A stretch of 41,326 nt of DNA from an uncultured Planctomycetaceae bacterium (GTDB lineage: Bacteria; Planctomycetota; Planctomycetia; Gemmatales; Gemmataceae). The stretch lies in contig CALARU010000175.1 of NCBI GenBank assembly GCA_937888715.1, forward strand, positions 1 to 41,326, written 5' to 3'. A program made the translations under genes and the position numbers. The notes under the pieces are model-generated. The model was not told the origin of the DNA. It saw only the letters and a program-made list of their open reading frames with translations, and did no database searches. Shown in pieces: positions 1,343 to 28,058 of the stretch (its first letter is position 1; every line of letters starts with the position of its first letter).

Positions 1343-2422
1343 TTAGAGAGCCTCATCGATCCAACCACCACCCAAAACCCTATTTCCATCGTAAAAAACC
1401 ACTGCCTGGCCCGGAGTTACTGCACTTTGGCTCGTTTCAAATTCAACTTCTGCTGCTTCTTCACTCAAACGAATCACCTTGGCGGGCGCAGCTTTATGGC
1501 GATAGCGAATTTGAGCATGGCAATTAATCTGCACATTCATCGGTATATTTGCCTGCCAATTAACCCCGGTAGATTTCAAGCCCTTTGCCAGCAATCCTTC
1601 CATTTCACCCACAACGACTTTATTTTCCTCTGCAACTATTTTAAGAACATACTTGCGCTGCCCCGTCGCAAAACCCAACCCTTTTCGTTGCCCAATCGTA
1701 AACCTCTCAATACCGTCATGCGTTGCCAGCGATTTTCCTGACTCATCAACAATCATCCCGGGCCTATTTAAATCGGGCATACGCTGCTTGATCATTTTGG
1801 CATGATCCCCATCCGGTACGAAACAAATTTCAACACTATCGGGTTTATCCGCTACGCTAAGGTTGGCAGCAAACGCCAACTCCCGCACTTGCTCTTTTTT
1901 CATATCCCCAAGGGGAAACATGATTTTTTCCAGTATCTTTCTTTTCAAACCATGCAGCACATACGATTGATCTTTATCAGGATCTACGGCCCTGTGCAGC
2001 TCTGCCCCATCGGTACCATGCACTATTTTTGCGTAGTGCCCGGTTGCAATATGATCAACGCCCAGCATTTCTCCATAGGACCAGAGTTGTCCAAATTTGA
2101 GCCAGTTATTGCAAACAATACAAGGGTTTGGTGTACGCCCCGAAAGGTATTCATGGGCGAAATAATCCATGATCTTGCCAAATTCAGCTTCAAAATCGAG
2201 CGCATAAAAAGGTATGTCAAATTTATCTGCTACCCGACGGGCATCGCCCGCATCAAGTGCGCTGCAGCAGCCTTTTTTTCTTTCCGCACGAGCATCTTCT
2301 GTGCCATGCACTCCTGTGCGCATGAATACTCCGATAACCTCATAGCCTTGATCTATGAGTAATTGTGCGCAAACCGAGCTGTCAACTCCCCCCGACATGG
2401 CAAGGAGGACTTTATTTCCCAT
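1343..2422 (-). CDS. mnmA: tRNA-specific 2-thiouridylase MnmA
   Basis: Makes the 2-thio group of wobble uridine-34 in tRNA for Lys, Glu and Gln, using ATP and relayed sulfur. The 359-residue length is typical. The N-terminal PP-loop SGGVDSS (residues 10-16) binds ATP. The catalytic pair is Cys104 (in NPCIVCNNWLKF) and Cys200 (in SVEICFVPDG), and GHYAKI and the DKDQSYVL motif are present. The residue three before the first catalytic Cys is Cys101, where Escherichia coli has Asp99, so three Cys line the site. Variants of this kind have been discussed in connection with iron-sulfur binding, which I infer only as a possibility. It is transcribed alone; the next gene upstream is divergent. Confidence 0.95.
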   Translation of the reverse strand: MGNKVLLAMSGGVDSSVCAQLLIDQGYEVIGVFMRTGVHGTEDARAERKKGCCSALDAGDARRVADKFDIPFYALDFEAEFGKIMDYFAHEYLSGRTPNPCIVCNNWLKFGQLWSYGEMLGVDHIATGHYAKIVHGTDGAELHRAVDPDKDQSYVLHGLKRKILEKIMFPLGDMKKEQVRELAFAANLSVADKPDSVEICFVPDGDHAKMIKQRMPDLNRPGMIVDESGKSLATHDGIERFTIGQRKGLGFATGQRKYVLKIVAEENKVVVGEMEGLLAKGLKSTGVNWQANIPMNVQINCHAQIRYRHKAAPAKVIRLSEEAAEVEFETSQSAVTPGQAVVFYDGNRVLGGGWIDEAL

Positions 2423-7512: not shown

Positions 7513-8124
7513 TTAACGGGCGCCAAAATAGTACAGGCTTAAAAAGAGTGATGCGTGCCTAAGCCAGCTAGGCAGCCCTTCTGGCCCATGGATAAAAAAG
7601 ATTGCTGCAGTGCTTGCAACGGTAATCAGAACCAGCATGGCTTGCATGTCTTGCCAGCGGGCCAGCAAAGAATTTACACCAGGCCGCATGACCCATTTTG
7701 CAAAATAGGCGATAAACATACCAGAGATATAAGCTCCTACAGCGCCAAAGATAGGCAACACTTTGGGATCAAACAACCTGCCTTGTTTCTGTAGAAAAAA
7801 CCCAGCAACACCAAAAGTTAAAAGAATCAGTGCCCGGATAACTCCTGTGGGGAGGTAAAGAGGCCTGGTTTCTGGAGGCAGAAGGCCTTCTTTTTGCAAT
7901 CGTGGAACAGCTTCGGGTGGAATATTTAGAAATCTGCGCCTGGAAAAGTAATGCGCAAGTGCAATCAATAGGGTTTCGTTCCACAAAATATCTATATCTC
8001 GGCCCGCCATCATTTCATTGATGACAACTCCAAGAATCAACAGGGTTAATAATGCACGAACACTGCCTTGCGGAAGCCCCAACGGCGGCCTGACTGGGTT
8101 ATCTGAATCTGTTATTTGTGACAT
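7513..8124 (-). CDS. Planctomycete-type integral membrane protein with duplicated LPxGxxRAL motif
   Basis: 203 residues of unknown function with about five or six hydrophobic segments. Two halves begin with the same element: LPQGSVRALLTLLILG near residue 18 and LPTGVIRALILLTFGV near residue 92, each leading into a membrane helix. This suggests an internal duplication. Between the halves is a soluble stretch (RRRFLNIPPEAVPRLQKEG). I do not recognise a named family. Its ATG follows the stop codon of the decayed sigma-factor remnant with no bases between, so the two were once translationally coupled. It converges on the galT-like gene with a 4-base gap. Confidence 0.75.
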   Translation of the reverse strand: MSQITDSDNPVRPPLGLPQGSVRALLTLLILGVVINEMMAGRDIDILWNETLLIALAHYFSRRRFLNIPPEAVPRLQKEGLLPPETRPLYLPTGVIRALILLTFGVAGFFLQKQGRLFDPKVLPIFGAVGAYISGMFIAYFAKWVMRPGVNSLLARWQDMQAMLVLITVASTAAIFFIHGPEGLPSWLRHASLFLSLYYFGAR

Positions 8125-17610: not shown

Positions 17611-18564
17611 ATGACACAAATTCCTCTAGGTCCACACCATGCCCTACATTCTAAAAATGCTTCAGAGCGATTTATTTTGAACCTCTTCGATCGGTTGTGG
17701 GAAAAGTTCCGATCCCGGGTTAGCTATGTGAATAACTACGAAACATTAATTCACGAAGCTGGCGCATCGTTCTTTAACGATCATATTGCCCTCCGAACTT
17801 TCTGCAGCCAAAACCCCCTTGCGGGTATCTCCTCAATCTCGCGCATTTTTGAAGCTTTGGGCTACCGAGGGGCGGATTGTTATAACTTTGAAGACAAACA
17901 CTTAAGTGCTATTTATTTCCAACACCCGCAACCCTCTTTCCCCAAAGTTTTCATCTCCGAATTACGCACTTGGGAATTGAAACCCTCCTCCAAGCACATC
18001 ATCCATGGCGCACTTAAAACACATCGCACCAACCTTCCAGAATCTTTCCTCACAGACCTTCATCACCTTAAAACAAAATCGGAATCCTCGAGAGCTTCTC
18101 TTTTAGAGGAAGCGGTTGAATTCTTCCACGAACTGCCCTGGCATATACCCGAAAAATCCGACCTACTCGAACTTAATCTCGATTCCCAGTACGCTGCATG
18201 GGTTTTGGTGCATGGCTACAATGTGAATCATTTTACTTCGTTGATCAACTCGCATAAGGTGCCCGCATTGGATGACATAGAAAAAACTACCGATGCGCTT
18301 TTGAAAGCGGGTGTTCCAATGAAAAAAGAAATCGAAGGGGTAAGGGGCAGCAAGCTAAGGCAGACTGCGACTGAAGCTGTTTTAATTGATGTACCTGTTT
18401 TGGAAAATGGGAAGATGACAAAGATCCCGTGGACTTACGCCTACTTCGAGTTGGCACAACGGGATACATTCAAGGATTTAGGAACGGGAAAACTATTGCG
18501 CTACGAAGGATTCCTAGGGCCGCAAGCTACCAACCTTTTCGACATGACAAAAATTGCAACCTAG
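17611..18564 (+). CDS. DUF1338 2-oxoadipate dioxygenase/decarboxylase (HglS/YdcJ family)
   Basis: Family members such as Pseudomonas putida HglS use Fe(II) and O2 to convert 2-oxoadipate to D-2-hydroxyglutarate in lysine breakdown. The 317-residue protein has the conserved DHIALRTF motif with metal ligand His58 and the nearby substrate Arg62. HGYNVNHFT holds the second ligand His207 and YFELAQR the third ligand Glu280, a vicinal-oxygen-chelate fold triad. It is divergent from the aminotransferase-ALDH7 operon with only 147 bases between. Its stop overlaps the stop of the downstream convergent selenoprotein gene (shared CTAG at 18561-18564). Family assignment is strong; the exact reaction follows from family and context. 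Confidence 0.9.
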   Translation: MTQIPLGPHHALHSKNASERFILNLFDRLWEKFRSRVSYVNNYETLIHEAGASFFNDHIALRTFCSQNPLAGISSISRIFEALGYRGADCYNFEDKHLSAIYFQHPQPSFPKVFISELRTWELKPSSKHIIHGALKTHRTNLPESFLTDLHHLKTKSESSRASLLEEAVEFFHELPWHIPEKSDLLELNLDSQYAAWVLVHGYNVNHFTSLINSHKVPALDDIEKTTDALLKAGVPMKKEIEGVRGSKLRQTATEAVLIDVPVLENGKMTKIPWTYAYFELAQRDTFKDLGTGKLLRYEGFLGPQATNLFDMTKIAT

Positions 18565-18911
18565 GAACAGAACTTCTTGTACGCTTCTTCATTAAATCCA
18601 ATGTAAAGGGTGCTACCTACCAAAAGGGTGGGCGCCCGTAAGTTGCCTGTTGGGCCCATCATTAACGCAGCAATATCTTCATTGCTTGGCTTATCTTTTT
18701 TCAAATCCAGAGTGGTAATTTTACTGCCCTTAGCAGCAATGATGGTGCTAGCTTTTTGGGCGAGGGCCAAAGCCTCTTTCAAACCGATTTTGGTTTTAGA
18801 GGCATCAATAGTTTCGGTAATGGTATGGCTGATAGGCTCAAGAAACTCCTGAGCTTTTTTACAGGTTGTTCACCCTTTGCGATGGTACTGCCAAGCGATT
18901 TTTACAGTCAT
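18561..18911 (-). CDS. ArsC/Spx-like thioredoxin-fold selenoprotein with in-frame UGA (UxxC)
   Basis: The reading starts at the ATG at 18909-18911, with AAGGAG six bases upstream. It encodes MTVKIAWQYHRKG, then TGA at 18870-18872 (codon 14), then TTCKKAQEFLEP and on to a TAG at 18561: 116 residues if TGA is read through. The TGA occupies the first Cys of the CxxC motif of ArsC/Spx/YffB-like proteins, giving Sec14-Thr-Thr-Cys17. The C-terminal half has the RAPTLLVG segment with the expected cis-Pro. A hairpin follows the TGA. The gene lies 60 bases downstream of a Rieske ferredoxin gene on the same strand. Its role is probably a small redox enzyme. Sequencing error or nonsense mutation is possible but less likely. 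Confidence 0.82.
18836..18854 (-). promoter_or_regulatory. Candidate bacterial SECIS hairpin
   Basis: Starting 15 bases after the UGA on the minus strand, GCUCAG (18854-18849) pairs with UUGAGC (18841-18836), including a G-U pair next to a 7-base loop GAGUUUC. Bacterial SECIS elements are short stem-loops just downstream of the UGA with a G at the start of the apical loop for SelB contact. Position and loop fit. Confidence 0.65.
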
Positions 18912-18971
18912 GATTTTCTCCTTATCAATATCATAGGTCGTTATCTAATGTTAATTCCAACTAAGTTCTTA

Positions 18972-19298
18972 CTATTTGGGTTGGTTGTTTGCGGGGGTCT
19001 CTAGAAAAATCTCATCATCCACCACAGACACATTGTAGCAACCAACTTTTAATCTTGGGTTATCGGCCCAAGCACCATCGCATAAGCGGAAACGCCAAGC
19101 ATGCCATGGGCAGGTAACCGTGCCATCTTCTACATGGCCACCACTAAGGGAAGCGCCCATGTGTGGGCAAAAATCATCGATTGCAAAGTATTTTCCTTGC
19201 TGATGATAGATTCCCACATACTTTTCTTCAACTTCGATGGTATGAACCTGGCCTTCGGGAAGTTCGCTGACTTTGCACACCTTGTGAAGTTTCGACAT
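18972..19298 (-). CDS. Rieske [2Fe-2S] ferredoxin (NirD/BphA3-like)
   Basis: A 108-residue soluble Rieske protein. The cluster ligands are Cys44 and His46 in CPHMGASLSGG, and Cys63 and His66 in CPWHAWRF. The N-terminus (KVCKVSELPEGQVHTIEVEEK) is typical of small Rieske ferredoxins serving oxygenases or nitrite reductase. It has no signal peptide, so it is cytoplasmic. It is the first gene of a minus-strand pair with the UxxC selenoprotein 60 bases downstream. An electron-transfer partnership is conceivable, as is service to an oxygenase elsewhere. No oxygenase or reductase component lies next to it. Confidence 0.92.
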   Translation of the reverse strand: MSKLHKVCKVSELPEGQVHTIEVEEKYVGIYHQQGKYFAIDDFCPHMGASLSGGHVEDGTVTCPWHAWRFRLCDGAWADNPRLKVGCYNVSVVDDEIFLETPANNQPK

Positions 19299-27213: not shown

Positions 27214-27954
27214 CTACTTCCCTGGTTTTTTGAAAACGGAAGCATCAACCTTTTCCAGGATTGTATAAGAGATGTTTTTATTCTCCACGAATTTGTTGCC
27301 CCCGAGAAAATGCGTTTCTTTTGTTGCAAACTTGACAGCCCCAAAAGTTTGATAGTCTGAATATTGCACTCCCTTGAGTATCTCGACCCCCGCTTGCTTT
27401 GCTTTTCGTTCCGCCTTGGTTAGAAGATTGGTTTCCTTATCAAAATACAATGAGACTTCGGACCCACCTGCAAGAGAAACCTTAACTCCCATGACCGATT
27501 TATTCATAAGTTTAGATTCCCCCAGCGAGGTCAGTGTCGAACTGGGCTCCAAAAGAGATACAAGATTAGTTACTTGAAGGAAATAAGATTCTTCCTTGAG
27601 TTCCACGATTTTTTCCTTCGATAGATCGATAGGAAATCCACTTGCAATGCTCCACCCGGCTTCCCCCTCCAGGCACATAAGAAGATTTTCCTTGGTATCA
27701 AGCTTTATATCTAGTTTGATTTTCCCGGGCAAAGCAGCAATCAATTCATCGGTAAAGTTTTGAGCTTGGCCAAAAAAAATGGTTCCAGAACTAGTGCGCT
27801 TGAATTGCTGAGCCTTGGTAAGCGCTTCTTTGCCCCCTTGGGCTTCAACAGCTTTCTTGATGATTTCCTGTACATCCTGTTGCGCAAAAACTACTGAGTT
27901 TAAAAACAGGGTTGCGCTAAATAGAACAGTTGCTGCAATCTTTAAATTAGCCAT
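27214..27954 (-). CDS. Secreted LolA-like protein of planctomycete type
   Basis: 246 residues from the ATG at 27954, which opens directly on a signal peptide (MANLKIAATVLFSATLF... cleaved near VFA-QQ). The mature part starts DVQEIIKKAVEAQGGKEAL. It then follows a beta-rich pattern with GEAGW, GVKVSLAGGSEVSLYFDKETNLLTKAE and a C-terminal YSDYQTFGAVKFA, a set I associate with LolA/LppX-like carrier folds in Gemmataceae. A periplasmic lipid-binding role is likely but unproven. It is convergent with the mlaEFD operon and ends one base from it, so neighbourhood also hints at lipid trafficking. The frame is open to 27993, but that start lacks support. Confidence 0.72.
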   Translation of the reverse strand: MANLKIAATVLFSATLFLNSVVFAQQDVQEIIKKAVEAQGGKEALTKAQQFKRTSSGTIFFGQAQNFTDELIAALPGKIKLDIKLDTKENLLMCLEGEAGWSIASGFPIDLSKEKIVELKEESYFLQVTNLVSLLEPSSTLTSLGESKLMNKSVMGVKVSLAGGSEVSLYFDKETNLLTKAERKAKQAGVEILKGVQYSDYQTFGAVKFATKETHFLGGNKFVENKNISYTILEKVDASVFKKPGK

Positions 27955-28058
27955 GATTTCTTTCTTTCTATCGAGTATTCTGTAACGCATCATCGTGTTA
28001 AAAACTTAGCATAAATCGTACCTTTACTTGTAGCCCAATTTAAGGATTATTAAAAGTG

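Follow-up and report, generated by a model that had tools for sequence, protein, structure and literature searches.

An in-frame UGA in a planctomycete ArsC/Spx-like gene almost certainly encodes selenocysteine within a previously described selenoprotein family

A minus-strand gene in the DNA of an uncultured Planctomycetaceae bacterium is interrupted by a single TGA at the position of a redox-active cysteine, which raises the question of whether this codon ends the protein or is read as selenocysteine (Sec). The window, which is the whole stretch of DNA analyzed here, comprises 41,326 nucleotides and contains the following features of the gene:

18561 to 18911, minus strand: ArsC/Spx-like gene of family NF041106, 116 amino acids when read through, with predicted Sec14 in the motif U-T-T-C
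18870 to 18872, minus strand: in-frame UGA, predicted Sec codon 14; the column holds TGA in 50, Cys in 10, and Asp in 1 of 61 aligned sequences
18861 to 18863, minus strand: codon (TGT) of Cys17, the putative resolving residue, which is Cys in 61 of 61 sequences
18915 to 18923, minus strand: ribosome-binding site region (AAGGAG), read from the sequence and preceding the ATG in each of the five close relatives inspected

The gene starts with the ATG at 18911-18909, with AAGGAG upstream in TATTGATAAGGAGAAAATCATG. After the TGA (18872-18870) the frame stays open until the TAG at 18563-18561, and there is no other in-frame stop, so that the initial annotation had read the gene exactly. The readthrough product of 116 residues is MTVKIAWQYHRKG-U-TTCKKAQEFLEP...NLRAPTLLVG...EEAYKKFCS. 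Both flanks of the TGA fit one protein, as had been proposed: the product matches Pfam ArsC (9.9e-11) and aligns with positions 1-107 of the 107 positions of the NCBIfam profile NF041106, 'ArsC family (seleno)protein', scoring 137 bits where the cut-off is 85. Membership in NF041106 calls for Sec or Cys as the opening residue of the U/CxxC motif, where the window gene has its TGA. When the window was scanned for frames of 100 codons or more that lie outside the major open reading frames and contain a single TGA, only this gene and a frame at 18610-18936 on the plus strand emerged, and the latter was rejected as the antisense shadow of the gene.

Most aligned homologs share the TGA. Of 392 genomes sampled from the phylum, 80 have matches to NF041106 above its cut-off. 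In an alignment of 61 sequences, which includes the window gene and some near-identical members, the codon at the TGA column is TGA in 50, TGC in 9, TGT in 1, and GAC in 1. The TGA falls where the initial annotation had put it, at the first position of the redox motif. Because the window scan yielded a unique frame and 50 of the 61 family sequences share the TGA, the interrupted frame is not a product of chance. The form of the gene also follows the Sec-specific elongation factor SelB: in the planctomycete sample, 68 of 70 TGA genes above the cut-off are in SelB-encoding genomes, and 8 of 11 stop-free genes above the cut-off come from genomes that lack a SelB match at E <= 1e-60 (Fisher p = 2.1e-7, with genes treated as independent, so that relatedness weakens the test). 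The two TGA genes in genomes without a SelB match come from assemblies that are 79% and 84% complete. Judged from these sequences, the distribution is the pattern expected of Sec/Cys exchange. Two SelB-encoding genomes (G150, locus L030, and G135, locus L040) have the Cys form as their sole form above the cut-off, so Sec loss here needs no loss of the machinery. Genome G045, which encodes SelB and has a Sec copy, carries a second copy (L069, around 2370-2414, minus strand) in which Asp (GAC) takes the place of Sec and the resolving Cys is retained; this copy is possibly an altered paralog.

A bacterial selenoprotein requires selA, selB, selC, and selD, and all four are present in the source assembly (99.6% complete, 414 contigs). 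The genes selB (405 bits) and selA (542 bits) adjoin on contig C287, selD (350 bits) is on contig C312, and a tRNA-Sec with anticodon UCA (68.8 bits) is on contig C124, in agreement with the earlier proposal that this cell uses selenocysteine. The selD gene (C312:74197-75126, minus strand) has an in-frame TGA of its own, in CAGUAGK, and its product, selenophosphate synthetase, is probably a second selenoprotein of the organism. The machinery sits on contigs other than that of the selenoprotein gene; nonetheless, its presence is borne out by six of seven genomes in the genus. All seven contain the TGA form of the gene and six contain SelB, the seventh genome being 88% complete, and the machinery therefore cannot be put down to contamination of a single assembly. 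Planctomycete metagenome-assembled genomes supply the nearest named contigs.

Could the UGA instead be a recent nonsense mutation in a decaying pseudogene? Plain open reading frame calling does show a broken gene, with no minus-strand frame of at least 80 amino acids listed at the locus, but the identical TGA recurs in sequences spanning many families of the phylum, and the gene has no other lesion. Over the 102 codons after the UGA, dN/dS is 0.07-0.11 (Nei-Gojobori script, five close relatives), and the 13 codons before it show no amino-acid change against the same five relatives. By this measure purifying selection acts on the part after the UGA, and translation beyond the UGA has therefore been maintained. 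Conservation of the TGA together with this selection leads us to reject decay, to which we give next to no credence. The suggestion that the UGA specifies an amino acid other than Sec, through reassignment or a suppressor, or that the TGA is a sequencing error for TGC, TGT, or TGG, draws on the relatives that have Cys at this position, but it is just as implausible. UGA is the normal terminator of 7 of the 29 ordinary genes in the window and so is not reassigned genome-wide, the TGA appears in the independent assemblies of relatives, and the genome holds the complete selA/B/C/D set; both reassignment and error were rejected. With the full Sec machinery in the cell and dozens of relatives carrying the same codon in the same place, the UGA almost certainly specifies Sec.

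Immediately downstream of the UGA there is a candidate for the RNA element that would direct this reading:

18836 to 18854, minus strand: putative bacterial SECIS, 8-bp stem GCUCAGGA/UCUUGAGC with a GUU loop, -10.2 kcal/mol

The putative element, GCUCAGGA-GUU-UCUUGAGC, begins 15 nt after the UGA, with 23 nt between the UGA and the loop. The bacterial SECIS model quoted in a recent review (PMC13188914) has a loop of 3-9 nt with a G in its first two positions, a stem of 4-16 bp, a spacing of 16-37 nt, and a minimum free energy of at most -7.5, and the window hairpin agrees with it in its 3-nt loop, stem, spacing, and energy. An Rfam scan of the window returned no matches. At least 6 of 7 pairs form in 31 of 44 unique Sec sequences compared with 0 of 11 Cys/Asp sequences, counting the better of two loop registers, and the maxima reached in controls were 20 with synonymous codons and 21 with shuffled arms. 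The stem also encodes the conserved stretch AQEFL, and for the window sequence alone 0.3% of synonymous recodings give eight pairs. Two-sided changes occur at 5 of the 7 pairs, and the covariation score exceeds that of all 500 shuffles in 29 distinct sequences chosen for register, with a slide-by-one control that is similar on some measures, owing to the two registers, and with relatedness not removed. The covariation is thus supportive of the hairpin, short of proof. The register does not fit 13 of the 44 unique Sec sequences, several of which fold other hairpins in the same stretch, and the folding z-score of the window hairpin alone is a modest -1.74.

Taken together, we have very little doubt that the gene encodes an NF041106 selenoprotein with a redox UxxC motif, in which SelB would insert Sec at UGA codon 14 with the aid of the downstream hairpin. 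For the window protein we infer the actual insertion of Sec, its redox chemistry, and its substrate from the sequence evidence. In this process, SelB would carry Sec-tRNA(Sec) to codon 14, with the hairpin just 3′ of the UGA directing insertion. Sec would form the first residue of the UxxC motif, facing the cis-Pro loop (LRAP), and its selenolate could attack an oxidized substrate such as a disulfide, a peroxide, or an oxyanion, after which Cys17 would resolve the intermediate. The protein is most likely a selenol/thiol oxidoreductase.

The genes around the locus were considered as a guide to function, including one on the same strand immediately upstream:

18972 to 19298, minus strand: Rieske [2Fe-2S] ferredoxin gene (Pfam Rieske, 7.6e-23), 60 nt from the selenoprotein gene

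The initial annotation had placed the selenoprotein in an operon with this ferredoxin. What the sequence gives is a same-strand adjacency, which close relatives retain but which occurs at none of the other homolog loci, so that a functional link between the two genes is conjectural. That the two proteins form a redox pair in the genus, with the ferredoxin donating electrons to the selenoenzyme or being repaired by it, strikes us as improbable. No neighbor shared across the phylum was found at the homolog loci, for which flanks of mostly 1.5 to 2 kb were available, and genome context therefore yields no function; shared gene clusters are limited to narrow groups of related loci, eight loci at most. 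On the other side, a 2-oxoadipate dioxygenase/decarboxylase gene (HGLS, PF07063; 17611-18564, plus strand) converges with the selenoprotein gene, and the two overlap by 4 bases at their 3′ ends; close relatives have the same arrangement. Elsewhere in the window, open reading frames at 7513-8124 (minus strand, 203 amino acids) and 27214-27993 (minus strand, 259 amino acids) have no Pfam match.

An AlphaFold2 model of the protein (pLDDT 90) has the thioredoxin-type ArsC/Spx arrangement that had been predicted. The closest solved structures, both by sequence and by Foldseek against the PDB, are Spx, YffB, and ArsC-related proteins, with Foldseek TM scores of about 0.5 and rmsd of 6-8 Å, and the model supports the predicted fold class and nothing beyond it. 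Invariant or near-invariant residues are W7, Y9, H10, R11, U14, C17, A37, K39, G62, G86, P87, G89-P94 (G-N-L-R-A-P), G99, and G105-F106. A Sec-containing member of the glutaredoxin-linked ArsC arsenate reductases would be compatible with the Pfam match and with the ArsC/Spx relatives in the PDB. However, the protein scores 16.6 bits against the TIGR00014 arsC cut-off of 106, and no arsenic-resistance genes were found among the Pfam-scanned neighbors. The classical ArsC active site has Arg directly before the conserved Pro, and this family instead has Ala, or Ser in one aligned member. We consider this function unlikely. There is a similarly slim chance that the Sec-containing protein works as an Spx-like transcription factor, sensing redox state and binding RNA polymerase: the top PDB matches by both sequence and fold include Spx chains, and TIGR01617 (Spx/MgsR) gives 41.3 bits, but this score is below its cut-off of 75, the other Spx families give 35.1 of 159, 32.6 of 123, and 24.6 of 152 bits, and identity to the Spx structures is ~20%. 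A selenol/thiol oxidoreductase remains our preferred reading.

The window gene is thus almost certainly a real selenocysteine gene, as indicated by the machinery, the TGA/Cys alternation, the selection, and the SECIS-like hairpin, and it belongs to a family that has been described before. A 2026 review tabulates NF041106 by name as a UxxC selenoprotein, 'Arsenate reductase-like protein, UxxC' (PMC13188914), ArsC-like UxxC selenoproteins are also tabulated in another review (PMC9312934), and selenoprotein use by Planctomycetes has been published (PMC4807772). The description of the gene as overlooked therefore stands for plain open reading frame calling, which missed it, and not for the family, which is catalogued. 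What the locus adds is a clean set for comparison, in which the Sec and Cys forms follow SelB throughout the phylum and which could help to refine SECIS models or guide the choice of a member for biochemistry.

Among known systems, NF041106 (ArsC_rel_Se_1) is the closest: the match is full-length and well above the cut-off, with UxxC and with either Sec or Cys in the corresponding column, and nothing essential sets the window gene apart as a planctomycete member beside a Rieske gene. The 'Arsenate reductase 2' group (cd03032) reported earlier from ocean metagenomes (GOS) is similar by description, being a UxxC selenoprotein of the ArsC superfamily (PMC2398784). Glutaredoxin-linked ArsC (TIGR00014) shares the Pfam superfamily and the position of the catalytic Cys/Sec, but differs in the residue before the cis-Pro position, where the window protein has Ala for Arg, in the invariant second Cys of the window family, and in a score that leaves the window protein far below the cut-off. 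Spx (1z3e, 3gfk, 6ghb) and YffB (1rw1) share the ArsC-type thioredoxin fold, and Spx has CxxC in the place of UxxC. In contrast to the window protein, which falls under the Spx cut-offs at about 20% identity, both have Cys at the position of the predicted Sec.
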